NCBI GenBank assembly: GCA_946537255.1
Contig: CAMNFS010000010.1
Location: forward strand, 1 to 47,129
DNA length: 47,129 nucleotides
Source of the DNA: an uncultured Erysipelotrichaceae bacterium
GTDB taxonomy: Bacteria > Bacillota_I > Bacilli_A > Erysipelotrichales > Erysipelotrichaceae
Direction of reading: 5' to 3'
Shown: one piece after another, positions 9,828-15,993 of the stretch
Layout of the letters: each line of letters opens with the position of its first letter
How positions within the stretch are numbered: position 1 is the stretch's first letter
Notes under the pieces: generated by a model
Databases searched by the model: none
The model's input: the letters and a program-made list of their open reading frames with translations, nothing else
Told to the model about the DNA's origin: nothing
Made by a program: the position numbers and the translations under genes

Positions 9828-10859
9828 ATGTTTACAGAGTATTGCTACAACGGCACCACCGAATTTGAGATCGGCAAATCAAAAACGGATGACACTTCCC
9901 TCTGCCCGGACCGCGCGAAAGCGGAAGAAAAGATCGCGAAAAACAACAAGAAAATCGACAGTCTTCAGCAGAAGCTCTATGCCGAGAAGAAGGAAGGCGT
10001 CATTTTCCTTTTCCAGGCAATGGACGCGGCTGGAAAAGACGGTACAATCCGTGCCGTTCTTCAGTGCCTCAGCCCGCACGGTGTCTATGAAGCGGCTTTC
10101 AAGGCTCCTTCCTCCGAAGAGCTGGCCCATGATTACATGTGGCGGGTTGCCTACGCCGTTCCGGAAAAAGGTGAGATCGCCATTTTCAACCGCAGCCACT
10201 ACGAAGATGTTCTGATCGGCAAGGTCAAGAAGCTCTATCTGAAACAGGCGCACGCGGACCGTATCGATATGGATACCGTCATCGAGAAGCGCTACGATTA
10301 CATCAGAAGCTTTGAAGAATATCTGTACTCCAACAGTATCCGGGTTGTCAAAATCTTCCTGAATGTTTCCAAGGATGAACAGGCAAGACGGTTCCTCTCC
10401 CGGATCGAAGAACCGGAAAAGAACTGGAAGTTCTCTGAAGCCGACTGGAATGAGCGCAAGTACTGGGATGAATATCAGAAAGCGTTTGAGGACGCGATCA
10501 ACGCGACCAGCACGGAAAACTGCCCCTGGTATGTTGTGCCTGCCGACCATAAGTGGTACATGCGCTACGTAGTCAGTGAAATCATTCTCAGTACGCTGAA
10601 GGACATGGATCCTCACTACCCGGTTGTCACCGAAGACCGCATGGAACAGTTCCAGCAGCTCAAGCAGGAGATTCTCTCGGAGCTGCCGCCGGAGGAAGCC
10701 AGGGAGATCATGGAAGGATCCGATAAATCCAGTTCGAAATCGGAAGAGACCGTCGATTCCATCCCGACTCTGAAGGACGCGGAAAAGAAAGCCAGAAAAG
10801 CAAGCAAGAAGGCTGAGAAAAAAGCCAAGAAGAAGAAAAAGAAAAAGCAGGGAAAATAA
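9828..10859 (+). CDS. ppk2: PPK2-family polyphosphate kinase with lysine-rich tail
   Basis: 343 aa. P-loop kinase of the PPK2 family, which uses polyphosphate to phosphorylate nucleotides (NDP or NMP) or runs in reverse. The Walker A region Q63-A-M-D-A-A-G-K-D-G72 and the lid segment F-N-R-S-H-Y-E-D-V-L are clear. The N-terminal domain ends near residue 290. The last 28 residues (about 316-343) contain 16 Lys including seven in a row, which is not part of the kinase fold. Which nucleotide is used cannot be read from the sequence. A ribosome site (TTGAGGA) precedes the ATG. It is monocistronic with a strong terminator, divergent from mntP and 2.4 kb from ppk1. Confidence 0.9.
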   Translation: MFTEYCYNGTTEFEIGKSKTDDTSLCPDRAKAEEKIAKNNKKIDSLQQKLYAEKKEGVIFLFQAMDAAGKDGTIRAVLQCLSPHGVYEAAFKAPSSEELAHDYMWRVAYAVPEKGEIAIFNRSHYEDVLIGKVKKLYLKQAHADRIDMDTVIEKRYDYIRSFEEYLYSNSIRVVKIFLNVSKDEQARRFLSRIEEPEKNWKFSEADWNERKYWDEYQKAFEDAINATSTENCPWYVVPADHKWYMRYVVSEIILSTLKDMDPHYPVVTEDRMEQFQQLKQEILSELPPEEAREIMEGSDKSSSKSEETVDSIPTLKDAEKKARKASKKAEKKAKKKKKKKQGK

Positions 10860-10872
10860 TCCAGCTGATTCA

Positions 10873-10897
10873 GTCCCGGAATGCCGGGACTTTTTTT
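10873..10897 (+). terminator. Terminator of ppk2
   Basis: GTCCCGG (10873-10879), loop AATG, CCGGGAC (10884-10890), then seven T. The next gene's -10 begins only 11 bases later. Confidence 0.92.
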
Positions 10898-10908
10898 ATC
10901 GAAGACGG

Positions 10909-10914
10909 TATGAT
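10909..10914 (+). promoter_or_regulatory. -10 element for leaderless phospholipase-like gene
   Basis: TATGAT ends 6 bases before the ATG at 10921, with AGTGCC between. The usual start seven bases after the hexamer is the A of the ATG. There is no Shine-Dalgarno sequence and no room for one, because the ppk2 terminator T-run ends at 10897. Confidence 0.5.
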
Positions 10915-10920
10915 AGTGCC

Positions 10921-11559
10921 ATGGCACAGCGGATCATCCATTACATCATGGGCGAAAAGCTTCTGGAACAGGGAGTTCATCATCCCGACCGTTTCCGGAT
11001 CGGCAACCTTCTTCCGGACGCGTATACCGGCATGCAGTACCGCCGCCGGACGCATTTTGTGCATCAGGAAGAAGTGGATGGAAAAACGGTACGGGTATGT
11101 GATTTCCCTGCCTTTCACGATGCGTTTTCATCCCTGATCCAAAAGGATGACCTGTATCTTGGATATTACATGCATCTGGTGGAAGACGCGTTTTCCAGAG
11201 TATTCTGGAAAAAAGAACCGTTCCATATTCCACCCGGGGTTCAGGGGGTGGCGCTTCTGCACAGGGATTACCACCTCCTGAACCGGTACTTTGTGGAAAG
11301 TCGCGGTCTGAAATTTGATCTGAGCCTGCCGCAGAAGTTTGAGGAAGAGCCGATCCGGCAGATCTATCCGTTTGATCTATCCGGTTTTCTGAAGGAGTTT
11401 GAACAGGATTTTCACGATCCGGCGGAAGGAACCTGCACATTCCTCAGCGAAGAGATGATGGAAGAGATGCTGGCGGAATCAGAACCGGTCATTCAGCACG
11501 CGTTCCATCTTATGAAGGAAGAAAACAGACCGCTGAACCCGACAGACTTTGTCTGGTAA
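10921..11559 (+). CDS. Zinc-dependent phospholipase C-like protein
   Basis: 212 aa, no signal peptide, so cytoplasmic. Spaced His/Asp residues resemble the zinc-dependent phospholipase C / P1 nuclease-like helical fold: H7, D33 in G-N-L-L-P-D-A-Y, H45 in T-H-F-V-H, and H85/D89 in G-Y-Y-M-H-L-V-E-D-A. Many Bacillota carry such short stand-alone proteins annotated as hydrolases without known substrate. It appears to be transcribed alone from its own leaderless-type start. It ends 17 bases from the convergent nucleoside kinase gene, and I see no terminator between them. Confidence 0.55.
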   Translation: MAQRIIHYIMGEKLLEQGVHHPDRFRIGNLLPDAYTGMQYRRRTHFVHQEEVDGKTVRVCDFPAFHDAFSSLIQKDDLYLGYYMHLVEDAFSRVFWKKEPFHIPPGVQGVALLHRDYHLLNRYFVESRGLKFDLSLPQKFEEEPIRQIYPFDLSGFLKEFEQDFHDPAEGTCTFLSEEMMEEMLAESEPVIQHAFHLMKEENRPLNPTDFVW

Positions 11560-11576
11560 ACAGCGGTCTTTCTTTG

Positions 11577-13235
11577 TCAGACGATGACAGAGCCTCCGAT
11601 GAATTCCCGGAGAATGGATTTATTCGGAACGATATGATCATCCTCGATTGTCACAACATATTTCAGCATTCTGAGCAGACGCTGCGCTTCCGCAAACTCC
11701 GGCTGCCGGTCCGTGATCCGCTCCAGCTGCGGTTTGGCGTATTTCTTCAGAATCGCCAGCTCATAGACACTCTGGCTGTTGAAGAACGCGTCCGCGTTGG
11801 AACTGAACGGGAAGATATTGGTGTCTTCCCCGCGGTTGACCTTCGGCCACATGTCAATCGTCATGGCCGCGCTGTACCCGCGAAACTGCGCGTCTCTTAC
11901 AATCCGTCTCAGGAATCTTGCGTCCGTCGTTGGAATCCGATTGTTCTGATCAATATTCAGCTGGGTCAGAGGACTGATATAGATGCGGAATTTATCCTCG
12001 TCCGGTATCTGACTTGTCAGCGCCGGATTCAGACAGTGCAGTCCCTCGATTACAATCGGCTGAGCGGGAAGTATTTTTGTGATCCGTTTTCCGAATTCCT
12101 TTACCCCTTCCTTGAAGTCGTACCGCGGAATATCCGCCTCTTCTCCGGAAAGAAGTGCGCTCAGATCGCGATTCAGAAGTTCAAGATCCAGGGCAGAAAG
12201 GCCTTCAAAATCCGGTTTTCCATCTTCTCCGAGCGGTGTATCCGAACGGTCGAGAAAGTAATCATCCGTACCAAGATACAGCGGCTTCAGTCCGATTGCC
12301 CGCAGCTGAATGCACAGCCGGTTGGCGAATGTCGTCTTGCCGGAGGAAGAAGGCCCGGCGATCAGAATGATCCGCTTCTTTTCCTCCGCGATCCGGTCTG
12401 CGATCGCCGCGATCTTTTTTTCGTGCAGCGCTTCGCACAGCAGAATCAGATCCTTGTATTCGCCGCTCAGAATCATGCGGTTGAGATCCGAAACCATCCG
12501 GACGTTTGTAATCTTGCTCCATCTTCTTTCTTCGGAAAAAGCATCATACAGAATTCTCTGTTCCTCAAACGGCGGAACCGAAGCCGGATTCCGCGGATGA
12601 GGAAAGCGGAGCAGCGTACCGTACTTATACTGTTTCACTTCAAACAGATCGATATACCCGGTATCCGGAACCAGCTCATCCGAAAAAGCGGCAATGGATT
12701 CTCCGAGCTGATAAAGAGACACATTCTCCAGATCCGGAGTCACTTCAATGTTTTCAACAAGATCCTCCCGGTCACGCGCTCTGAGCGCCTCAATAATGTT
12801 ATCCCGGTTGGAGTTGATTTTCTGAATCGGAATGCTTTGTTCGACCAGTTCCTTCATCCGGTTTTCCACGGAACGGACCAGATCTTCATCGACCGCGGTT
12901 CCCTTCAGCGTGATATACAGTCCTTTGGAAAGGGAATTATTGACGCGGATCCGGACCTTCTTTCCAGCCACATCGTGAATTGCCCGGTCATACAGCAGAA
13001 TCAGACTTGCCTGGTAGCACATCTTGCCGCCGCTGTCCCGCATGTCAAGCAGCTCCAGCGTGCCGCTGCGGCTGATCATTTCATCCAGTCTTCTGACATG
13101 ACGGTCAAATCTTGCCAGAACGATCCGGAACGGATGCTTCTGCTGAAATTCATCCGCAATCGTGCGGATGCATACCGGTTCATGATATTCCCGGGTGATC
13201 GGATCTTCTCCCTGAATCTCTATTCTGATAATCAT
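11577..13235 (-). CDS. TGS-domain nucleoside (uridine-type) kinase
   Basis: 552 aa. The first ~60 residues look like a TGS domain and residues ~60-240 like the second additional domain of threonyl-tRNA synthetase. From ~285 on there is a phosphoribulokinase/uridine-kinase-like P-loop domain, with Walker A G-P-S-S-S-G-K-T-T near 292-300 and a downstream D-D-Y-F-L-D motif. Such fusions are widespread in Bacillota and annotated as nucleoside kinases; the real substrate is not settled. The ATG overlaps the ppk1 stop as ATGA (13232-13235), so it is the third gene of the msrA-ppk1 operon. That coupling suggests a link between nucleotide phosphorylation and polyphosphate, but this is inferred. Confidence 0.78.
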   Translation of the reverse strand: MIIRIEIQGEDPITREYHEPVCIRTIADEFQQKHPFRIVLARFDRHVRRLDEMISRSGTLELLDMRDSGGKMCYQASLILLYDRAIHDVAGKKVRIRVNNSLSKGLYITLKGTAVDEDLVRSVENRMKELVEQSIPIQKINSNRDNIIEALRARDREDLVENIEVTPDLENVSLYQLGESIAAFSDELVPDTGYIDLFEVKQYKYGTLLRFPHPRNPASVPPFEEQRILYDAFSEERRWSKITNVRMVSDLNRMILSGEYKDLILLCEALHEKKIAAIADRIAEEKKRIILIAGPSSSGKTTFANRLCIQLRAIGLKPLYLGTDDYFLDRSDTPLGEDGKPDFEGLSALDLELLNRDLSALLSGEEADIPRYDFKEGVKEFGKRITKILPAQPIVIEGLHCLNPALTSQIPDEDKFRIYISPLTQLNIDQNNRIPTTDARFLRRIVRDAQFRGYSAAMTIDMWPKVNRGEDTNIFPFSSNADAFFNSQSVYELAILKKYAKPQLERITDRQPEFAEAQRLLRMLKYVVTIEDDHIVPNKSILREFIGGSVIV

Positions 13236-15481
13236 TTATGTCCCTTTGCCGTCTTTTTCTTTCCGGCTCCTTTTTTCGTGGATCCGCCCTTTTTGTCCGC
13301 GTTCTCTTTTTTTCCGCCGGATTTCTTCTTTTTCTTCGGCTTCTGAGCAGACGGATCCGCTTTGAATTTGGTATCGAAAATAATCCCGCGATGTGCCGGA
13401 CGGATTGTTCCCTGCGGAAGGATCTGTTCCGACCCCTTTGTCTCCTTCATCATCTCATCCTGACAGGACAGCGGCTCCATATCATCATGGATATGATGAT
13501 ACTTCCCGTGCTTATCCATTCTTCTGGCCTTGACGTTGTCCGCAAGACACAGTTCCAGATAACTGCGCAGCGTCTCCCGGATCGCAGGATCGCTGATCGG
13601 GCAGGCAACCTCCACTCTGCGTTCCGTATTGCGGGTCATGAAATCAGCCGAGGAAATATACAGTTTCTCGTCCTGCCCGGATCCGAAGAGATAGATGCGG
13701 GAATGTTCCAGATATCTTCCCACGATGGAGCGGATATGAATGTTTTCTGTTTTCCCGGATACTCCCGGAAGAATGCACGTGATGCCCCGGATGATGAGAT
13801 TGATCCGTACGCCCGCGGCAGATGCCTCCTGAAGCTTTTCAATGACTTCCTCATCCGTGATGGAATTCAGCTTGCAGGTGATTCTTCCCATCTCTCCCTT
13901 ATCCGTCTCGCGCTCAATCAGCTCAATAACGGTCTGCTTCAGAGAGACCGGAGAAACCAGAAGATAGCGGTAGGCGCCGTCCAGTTTTCCAACCATCATA
14001 TTCTGAAAGAAGCTGACGGTATCCCGGACAATTCCAGGCCGGGCCGTAAGATACGCAAGATCCGTATACTGTCTGGCAGTATTCTCATTGAAGTTTCCGG
14101 TTGCGATCAATGCCACATGGGAGAGCTCCCTGTTTCTCATACGCGAGATCAGGCATATCTTGGAATGCACCTTGTAATCTTCAAACCCATACATGACGGT
14201 ACATCCCGCGTCCATGAGTTTTTCGGAATAGTCGATGTTGTTCTGCTCATCAAACCGCGCCTTGAGCTCGATCAGAACATCGACCTCCTTGCCGTTTTCC
14301 GCAGCCAGACACAGATAATCCACCAGTCTTGCCTTGCGGGCAAGCCGGTAAATCGTGATCTTGATGGAAATGACATCCGGATCCGCGGCAGCCTCCTTTA
14401 CCAGAAGAAGAAACGGATCCATGGATTCATACGGATAGGAAAGCAGAACATCTTTCTTCTGCACCTGATCAAACAGATTCTCATCATAATTGAAGGCAGC
14501 GGAAAGCTTCGGAGTATACGGCTCATAGGACATCCGCTTCGCCAGCTCATCAGGAAGCAGATCCGCGATCTGGAACATGTATTTTCTGTCCAGCGGCATC
14601 TGCGAAACATATACCATGCGGTCTTCGGCCTTGATATATTTGCTGAGATACTTGGTCATGGCCGGAGAAAGCTTTCTGGAAAGCTCCACCCTTACAAGAT
14701 CCTTCCGTTTCCGCTTCTTAAGCATTTCAACCATGCGGTCCCGGTAATCGTAGGTATCCGAGAACTGATCATCATCGACATCCACGTCCGCGTTCCGTAT
14801 CACCATGAATTTCAGTTTTTCCTTCACCGGCATTCCCTTGAAGATACTGTCCATATTGTCAAGCACGATGTCTTCCATATGAACATAGCGCACCTCATCC
14901 TTTTCCCCGGGAAGACGGACAATTCTGTGAAGATTGTCCGGTACCGCGACAATCGCAAACGCGTCCGCGTTGTTATAGCGGATCAGACCTGCCGCGTAGA
15001 TGGTTTCCGTCTGAAGCATCGGCAGCGGATGGCGGCTGTCGACAATCTGAGCGCCAAGCGTCGGCGCAACCGCGGTACGGAAGAATTTCCGGATCCATGC
15101 CCGCTCTTCCTTTGTGCATTCATCCAGGGAAAGATCATGGATTTTTTCGCGCTTCAATGCTTTCTTCAGATCCCGGAAGATTTCCTCGCGGCGCTGACAG
15201 AGCCGGTTGGCAGCCGCGTAGATTTTCTTCAGCTGCTCTTCCGGAGTCATACCGGACTTATTGTCGACCAGTCCTTTTTTCAGACGCTTTGCGTCGGTGA
15301 TACTGCCAACCCGTACGGAGAAAAACTCATTCAGATTGGAAGAAAAGATGGAAATGAATTTCATCCGTTCAAGAATCGGAACACTCTCATCCTTTGCCTC
15401 GGAAAGACAGCGCTCATCAAAGCGAAGCCAGGAGATTTCCCGGTTCTGGGTATATCCTTCCTTATAAAGATTTCTGATCAT
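13232..15481 (-). CDS. ppk1: Polyphosphate kinase 1 with lysine-rich tail
   Basis: 749 aa. PPK1 reversibly builds polyphosphate from ATP. The N-terminal R-E-I-S-W-L-R-F-D and S-S-N-L-N-E-F-F regions, the E-L-K-A-R-F-D-E-Q-N-N-I motif, and the two phospholipase-D-type histidines are present: H439 in Y-K-V-H-S-K, expected to carry the phosphohistidine, and H593 in Y-L-E-H-S-R. The core ends near residue 700. The remaining tail (about 714-749) has 17 Lys in 36 residues, alternating with Gly/Ser, unlike typical PPK1 proteins. Start and stop both overlap the neighbours by ATGA, placing ppk1 in the middle of a tightly coupled msrA-ppk1-kinase operon. Confidence 0.95.
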   Translation of the reverse strand: MIRNLYKEGYTQNREISWLRFDERCLSEAKDESVPILERMKFISIFSSNLNEFFSVRVGSITDAKRLKKGLVDNKSGMTPEEQLKKIYAAANRLCQRREEIFRDLKKALKREKIHDLSLDECTKEERAWIRKFFRTAVAPTLGAQIVDSRHPLPMLQTETIYAAGLIRYNNADAFAIVAVPDNLHRIVRLPGEKDEVRYVHMEDIVLDNMDSIFKGMPVKEKLKFMVIRNADVDVDDDQFSDTYDYRDRMVEMLKKRKRKDLVRVELSRKLSPAMTKYLSKYIKAEDRMVYVSQMPLDRKYMFQIADLLPDELAKRMSYEPYTPKLSAAFNYDENLFDQVQKKDVLLSYPYESMDPFLLLVKEAAADPDVISIKITIYRLARKARLVDYLCLAAENGKEVDVLIELKARFDEQNNIDYSEKLMDAGCTVMYGFEDYKVHSKICLISRMRNRELSHVALIATGNFNENTARQYTDLAYLTARPGIVRDTVSFFQNMMVGKLDGAYRYLLVSPVSLKQTVIELIERETDKGEMGRITCKLNSITDEEVIEKLQEASAAGVRINLIIRGITCILPGVSGKTENIHIRSIVGRYLEHSRIYLFGSGQDEKLYISSADFMTRNTERRVEVACPISDPAIRETLRSYLELCLADNVKARRMDKHGKYHHIHDDMEPLSCQDEMMKETKGSEQILPQGTIRPAHRGIIFDTKFKADPSAQKPKKKKKSGGKKENADKKGGSTKKGAGKKKTAKGHK

Positions 15482-15993
15482 TCTGATTCCTCCGTTTCAT
15501 TCAGCTGTCTGACAAGCTGATACTCTGCCCCGGATATGTGGCAATAGCCATCCGGGTGCTTCAAAAGATAATTCTGATGGTATTCTTCAGCCGGCCAGAA
15601 CTGCTTCAGCGCTCCGGATTCCACATGAAATTCCGGATAAAGCTTCCGCTCATGTTCAAGATACGCCGCCACTTCTCTTTCACTGTCCGGATCGGATGTA
15701 TAGATCCCGGTCTGATACTGACTGCCGATATCATTTCCCTGACGGTTCTTCTGGGTTGGATCCACACAGATAAAAAACGCTCTGAGAATCCGGCTCAGCG
15801 GAAGGATTCCGGGATTGTAGACCACCCGCACGGTTTCTCTGTGCCCGGTGGTATCGGAACAGACCTGCTCATAGGAAGGATTCGGCACCGTACCATTGGC
15901 ATATCCGGTTTCTGTATGCACGACCCCGTCAAGCGCCCGGATGACATGTTCCATTCCCCAGAAACATCCCCCGGCCAGATAGATTTCTTTCAT
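15478..15993 (-). CDS. msrA: Peptide methionine-S-sulfoxide reductase MsrA
   Basis: 171 aa. The catalytic G-C-F-W-G is at residues 9-13 with Cys10 as sulfenic-acid-forming residue. The substrate pocket, the Y-Q-T-G-I-Y and P-A-E-E-Y-H-Q-N-Y regions are intact. Additional Cys residues (45, 75 and near 149) could recycle the enzyme. It repairs oxidised methionine in the cytoplasm. It leads an operon with ppk1 and the nucleoside kinase, overlapping ppk1 by ATGA. The leader has TATAAT at 16021-16026 and an AGAGG ribosome site about ten bases before the ATG. Co-expression with ppk1 fits a response to oxidants such as hypochlorite. Confidence 0.95.
   Translation of the reverse strand: MKEIYLAGGCFWGMEHVIRALDGVVHTETGYANGTVPNPSYEQVCSDTTGHRETVRVVYNPGILPLSRILRAFFICVDPTQKNRQGNDIGSQYQTGIYTSDPDSEREVAAYLEHERKLYPEFHVESGALKQFWPAEEYHQNYLLKHPDGYCHISGAEYQLVRQLNETEESE

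Follow-up and report, generated by a model that had tools for sequence, protein, structure and literature searches.

Lysine-rich C-terminal tails on PPK1 and a class III PPK2 of an Erysipelotrichaceae bacterium as candidate polyphosphate-affinity tags

Why should two unrelated enzymes of polyphosphate (polyP) metabolism, encoded near each other, both end in a tail made largely of lysine? The question was raised by a stretch of 47,129 nucleotides (contig CAMNFS010000010.1 of assembly GCA_946537255.1; hereafter the window) from an uncultured bacterium of a group that we take to be Bulleidia/Solobacterium-like rumen/gut Erysipelotrichaceae. By analogy with published polyP-binding segments, we think it rather probable that the tails serve as polyP-affinity tags, which would keep the two enzymes attached to the polymer or to a granule. 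The features of the locus are listed in Table 1.

Table 1. Features of the ppk locus, with positions in the window (K, lysine; R, arginine)
Feature	Position	Strand	Basis or remark
ppk2, class III type	9828..10859	+	Pfam PF03976 (1e-66), NCBIfam TIGR03709 (2e-104)
PPK2 Walker A, AMDAAGKDG	10017-10043	+	motif position
PPK2 NRSHYED with class III glutamate	10188-10208	+	motif position
PPK2 C-terminal extension past core and clamp helix	10674..10856	+	residues 283-343
PPK2 Lys-rich segment	10773..10856	+	residues 316-343, 16 K/28
Nucleoside-kinase-like gene	11577..13235	-	PF00485 (8e-15); start overlaps ppk1 stop
ppk1, both catalytic histidines	13232..15481	-	PF13089, PF02503, PF17941, PF13090; TIGR03705
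PPK1 Lys-rich tail	13235..13342	-	sequence; residues 714-749, 17 K/36, R = 0
PPK1 FxTx[YF] mini-motif, IIFDTKF	13364..13384	-	residues 700-706; just ahead of Lys tail
Peptide methionine sulfoxide reductase (PMSR) gene	15478..15993	-	PF01625 (3e-55); upstream of ppk1, 4-base overlap

The two enzymes

The original prediction described two polyphosphate kinases with a shared kind of tail. Both enzymes are indeed tailed, but PPK2 belongs to class III and is probably a polyP user, not a second maker. PPK1 contains its N, middle, C1 and C2 domains, all above the cut-off of their Pfam models, and its histidines H439 and H593 do not vary among 23 aligned PPK1 sequences and line up with the E. coli structure 1XDO. 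The other enzyme matches both models of the PPK2 fold family and contains the GKDG and NRSHYED motifs. After Walker B, PPK2 enzymes of classes I and II have N and G, respectively, and those of class III have glutamate (PMC8776046); E126 in NRSHYED, the class III signature glutamate, is invariant among 21 aligned PPK2 sequences, the class being placed by motif and not by structure alignment.

The solved structure closest to the window PPK2 is EbPPK2 (9IGQ/9IGR), a class III enzyme from an Erysipelotrichaceae bacterium that phosphorylates both AMP and ADP from polyP (PMC12257356). It aligns with the window PPK2 over residues 9-285, including the clamp helix region; its solved chain has 306 residues, the alignment ends at 285, and the available part of PMC12257356 mentions no Lys-rich tail. 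With the signature glutamate and EbPPK2 as the nearest structure, the window PPK2 probably runs in the direction from polyP to ATP. Since the class III PPK2 enzymes studied so far mainly use polyP to produce ADP/ATP, the pair probably consists of two unrelated enzymes with different roles, a maker of polyP from ATP (PPK1) and a user of polyP.

We note that end-to-start overlaps join the PMSR gene (msrA-like), ppk1 and the nucleoside-kinase-like gene (11577-15993, minus strand), which suggests a single operon linking polyP to oxidative stress and nucleotide salvage. The tail of the nucleoside-kinase-like protein is not unusual.

Sequence and predicted structure of the tails

The lysine counts first reported for the locus, 16 in 28 residues with seven in a row for PPK2 and 17 in 36 for PPK1, were reproduced, and both open reading frames were found where they had been placed. 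PPK2 (343 aa) ends in KDAEKKARKASKKAEKKAKKKKKKKQGK and PPK1 (749 aa) in KPKKKKKSGGKKENADKKGGSTKKGAGKKKTAKGHK, the latter without arginine. The tails were also correctly said to lie past the catalytic folds: for PPK2 the Pfam model ends at residue 262 and the NCBIfam model at 273-281, and for PPK1 the Pfam PP_kinase_C model ends at 670 and the NCBIfam model at 679-685, all before the Lys-rich segments. Among solved structures of PPK1 and PPK2, no chain aligns into a Lys tail. In the AlphaFold2 models, PPK1 is confidently folded as far as residue 691, with residues 692-749 scoring under pLDDT 50, and PPK2 has a core with a C-terminal helix, a low-confidence linker (residues 300-315, pLDDT below 50) and then the Lys-rich segment, predicted as a lone helix at low-to-medium confidence (block pLDDT 50-77).

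Lysine content relative to the proteome

Using our own simple gene-calling model, we called 1,372 genes on 1.53 of the 2.44 Mb (63%) of the host genome. Among these, PPK1 (17) ranks first and PPK2 (16) second for lysines in the last 36 residues (mean 2.5, SD 1.9), followed at ranks 3 and 4 by a pair of Lys-Ala repeat proteins (15 and 13). Given a proteome lysine frequency of 5.4%, the binomial probability of the lysine count is 9e-14 for PPK2 and 9e-13 for PPK1. When lysines per 20 residues are counted anywhere in a protein of this genome, as is done in work on lysine polyphosphate modification (KPM), PPK2 comes first (13) and PPK1 joint third (10). Six consecutive lysine codons are found at only two sites genome-wide, one in the tail of PPK2 and the other in an N-terminal anchor belonging to a protein that we read as carboxypeptidase-like. 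Two congeners were ranked as well: in one (G022, 507 genes) PPK1 (19) and PPK2 (16) take ranks 1 and 2 and the next protein has 9, and in the other (G020, 200 genes) PPK2 is first with 14 and PPK1 joint second with 10. The Ppx of the host genome, which is not a kinase, has no Lys tail.

Conservation among relatives

Missing tails in close relatives had been named as the observation that would speak against the proposal. We ran this check and found Lys-rich PPK1 tails in nearly all congeners sampled (mostly metagenome assemblies) and PPK2 tails in most. Across about 36 related species, Lys-rich tails recur in most, with sequence and length varying and lysine being kept. PPK1 tails are short (about 4-9 K) in early-branching congeners, whereas the clade of the window has long ones, reaching 94 aa and 29 K; in several congeners they contain only 5-7 K per 20 aa. 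The PPK2 tail or extension is absent or minimal in six cases (L076, L080, L081, L092, L093 and G014), and the state of this tail on the tree requires two changes. As some congeners have a short PPK1 tail or lack the PPK2 tail, the enzymes can do without the tails. At the other extreme, the PPK2 tails of L063, L065 and L086 reach about 140 aa, with a high content of K, A, P and E, and those of L063 and L065 finish with stretches like AKKPVAKKPAAK.

Outside the genus, in the wider family and order, the match to the window PPK1 breaks off near residue 700 or earlier, with the exception of a sister genus (g49), whose PPK1 and PPK2 both align into the tail. No Lys tail was seen in the relatives from the order whose C-terminal ends were inspected. 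The raw correlation between the tails of PPK1 and PPK2 is weak (rho 0.38, uncorrected for relatedness), and with only two independent pairs on the tree a co-evolution test has no power; a statistical proof that the two tails evolved jointly was given up.

Of 36 congeneric PPK1 sequences, 35 retain the FxTx[YF] motif that precedes the Lys tail; the motif could dock on the core. This bears on the second rival to polymer tethering, that the tails act on catalysis by holding the chain near the active-site tunnel or by setting processivity, chain length or reaction direction. The active sites of PPK2 and PPK1 do lead polyP through positively charged tunnels (PMC8776046), and the C-terminal clamp helix, beside which the tail lies here, alters substrate preference in ChPPK2 (PMC12257356). 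However, the PPK1 tail has no confidently predicted structure in AlphaFold2, and the lengths of the tails, from about 30 up to 94 aa for PPK1 and from 2 up to 143 aa for PPK2, vary beyond what precise docking would allow; we hold a catalytic role to be improbable.

As to gene order, ppk1 and ppk2 are convergent, tail to tail, in 24 of the 24 loci that hold both (L056-L093), and their ends overlap by 4 bases in L067, L068, L070 and L072; one may speculate that the Lys tails originated from a shared terminator into which both genes were read. In six congeners (G003, G008, G011, G012, G013 and G016), matches to ppk1 and ppk2 are jointly missing and the Ppx-GppA gene is retained.

Selection on lysine

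We applied a codon test to gap-free tails of sister-species pairs, taking the neutral share of synonymous changes from the observed transition/transversion ratio. The lysine codons of the PPK1 tail show 17 synonymous versus 11 replacement changes, against a neutral expectation of 14% synonymous (P = 1e-8); by arithmetic, the neutral share is only 24% even at a transition bias of 5. Judged from these codons, the lysines of the PPK1 tail are under purifying selection. For PPK2, there are 3 synonymous and 0 replacement changes in gap-free pairs, and about 17 versus 1 when pairs with indels are aligned, where the alignment favours K-K matches.

These counts weigh on a further alternative, in which the tails are neutral or near-neutral low-complexity drift produced by slippage of AAG/AAA repeats. 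The tails are of low complexity, their length differs between close species, additions are tolerated at C-termini, and the PPK2 tail is missing in some congeners. Against such drift stand the 17:11 ratio in PPK1, the mixture of AAA and AAG codons in the tails (longest A run, 8), and the fact that the two PPKs lead the sampled proteome in three species, a target that drift would not pick. Drift is already disfavoured for the PPK1 tail, and we consider it quite improbable as the general explanation. A poly-A slippage artefact was rejected, as AAA and AAG are mixed and the lysine codon changes of PPK1 are mostly synonymous.

Comparison with known polyP-binding segments

PolyP binds Lys-dense segments non-covalently (PMC12077175), and polyP attachment to lysine repeats is ascribed to Neville 2024 as cited in PMC12345225. 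Among poly-Lys proteins of Pseudomonas aeruginosa, two with 9 K per 20 aa bound polyP, and two with 5 and 7 did not (PMC12077175); in EngA and SrmB, the 9 K/20 aa are C-terminal and include runs of 4, and the polyP shift disappears once the C-terminus is truncated (PMC12077175). For a poly-Lys (KPM) segment we asked for at least three consecutive lysines together with at least about 9 lysines per 20 residues, a level that is that of the published positives only. On this basis both tails are candidate KPM segments (PPK2, 13 K/20 with a run of 7; PPK1, 10 K/20 with a run of 5). They resemble EngA and SrmB in being Lys-dense and C-terminal, with more lysines per 20 aa and longer runs. The known KPM targets are polyP-regulated proteins of ribosome maturation or RNA, whereas here the candidate segment sits on enzymes that make or use polyP.

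It had also been suggested that the tails recall the acidic/Ser/Lys (PASK) polyP targets of eukaryotes. We scored PASK as at least 75% D/E/S/K with a lysine in 20 residues, which is reached by 10 of the 1,372 proteins; PPK2 is among them, so that the likeness holds for one tail, but PPK1 is not. PASK was rejected as the common denominator, and the poly-Lys KPM type fits both tails better.

Granule proteins offer further comparisons. AlgP of P. aeruginosa, with KPAA repeats in a histone H1-like Lys-rich tail, sits on polyP granules (PMC9239181). AlgP and the PPKs share a long low-complexity Lys-rich C-terminal tail (the PPK2 tails of L063, L065 and L086 come closest in composition), but AlgP, which binds DNA and spaces the granules, is a protein in its own right, whereas here the tail is fused to kinases; on inspection, KPAA-type tandem repeats (histone H1/AlgP/PhaF-like) are absent from the tails of the window proteins. 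In Ralstonia eutropha, PPK1a, PPK2c, PPK2d and PPK2e are granule-bound (as cited in PMC9239181 and PMC8776046), and granule PPKs are said to be only those with a basic isoelectric point (as cited in PMC9239181). There, too, both PPK1 and PPK2 types are on granules, with no Lys tail described in the citing passages. Given this basic-pI rule, we count it in favour of granule tethering that the Lys tail shifts the pI of PPK1 from 7.5 to 9.1 and that of PPK2 from 5.5 to 7.0; it counts against it that full-length PPK2, with net charge 0, is only neutral. CHAD-domain proteins likewise have a basic polyP-binding module, but in the form of a folded helical domain (PMC6537752); our search of the host genome found no CHAD protein, and CHAD-based granule targeting was rejected.

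Lysine is preferred over arginine in the PPK2 tails (397 K vs 24 R). In YihI, a K-to-R exchange led to loss of polyP binding (PMC12345225), and we therefore count the preference in favour of polyP binding. The main rival to that reading has nucleic acid (of the nucleoid, a ribosome or mRNA) as the ligand of the tails, so that the nucleoid, and not polyP, would be where the PPKs are anchored. The basic tails of proteins that we take to be nucleic-acid binders in this genome mix K and R, however (DEAD-box-like helicase, 10 K and 6 R; topoisomerase-like protein, 10 K and 4 R; Tex, 5 K and 7 R in 36 residues, a basic extension rightly called milder in the original prediction), and both polyP enzymes are tailed, along with few other enzymes of the genome. 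For the rival it can be said that Lys-rich tails also bind DNA and RNA, that Lys/Ala/Pro-rich tails such as the KPAA repeats of AlgP bind DNA (PMC9239181), that the ~140-aa PPK2 tails mentioned above (L063, L065, L086) have such a K-, A-, P- and E-rich composition, and that a preference for K over R is also consistent with H1-like tails. Since AlgP itself is found on polyP granules, the DNA and polyP readings are not mutually exclusive. We judge nucleic acid as the ligand in place of polyP to be unlikely.

Charged C-termini can change protein stability, and the tails might alter expression, solubility or turnover with no specific ligand. Such an effect fails to explain why the trait is common to two unrelated enzymes of the same polymer, and equally the preference for lysine over arginine, and we regard it as very improbable.

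Each component has its precedent: polyP-binding segments rich in lysine, Lys-rich proteins of the granule, and PPKs bound to granules. We found no description of Lys-rich tails on PPKs in the open-access literature. With the components known and PPK tails absent from that literature and from the solved chains, the tails would be a new variation on a known type of segment, in which enzymes that make or use polyP themselves appear to carry it.

Proposed function

Tethering to polyP fits the published Lys-polyP chemistry. As proposed here, the flexible Lys-dense C-termini would bind the polyanion multivalently and non-covalently, as the literature on other Lys-dense proteins implies. PPK1, forming polyP from ATP, and class III PPK2, turning polyP into ADP/ATP, would thereby be kept on their product or substrate chain or on the granule, and synthesis and ATP regeneration might both go on at the surface of one polymer store; this localisation and its benefit to the cell are what we infer. 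A bolder version, which we offer as a doubtful but not negligible possibility, is that within one lineage the same polymer-affinity tag was separately fitted to an unrelated polyP maker and spender, and that synthesis and ATP regeneration thereby take place in one shared condensate which the tails help to condense.

The proposal touches on how the enzymes of polyP reach granules and remain there and on the purpose of the Lys-polyP interaction. Closely related PPKs, some with a long Lys tail, some with a short one and some with none, form a natural series that would make both questions directly testable. It also suggests a simple tether of enzymes to polyP that would be useful in ATP-regeneration systems, where EbPPK2, a relative of the window PPK2, is a preferred catalyst.

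Other lysine-rich proteins in the host genome

The Lys-Ala repeat proteins of this species, one of them encoded beside ppx, may be further parts of such a condensate. The two paralogues (C38:5678-6793, minus strand, in L168; C6:41205-41912, minus strand, L134:1205-1912) are acidic in their N-terminal half and carry C-terminal KKAxKKA repeats. The C38 gene and the single Ppx-GppA gene (C38:7210-8097) are divergently oriented, and the C6 protein has a sub-threshold CHAD match (E 0.08). A homologue was found in 0 of 59 congeners, and the idea that these proteins are conserved was dropped.

A Lys-rich tail is also found on a metabolic enzyme: a protein that we read as enolase (L146, C16:34545-35936), for which the other sampled stretches contained no enolase for tail comparison, ends in the Lys/Ala/Pro tail APAAKAPAKKAPAKKSAKK.
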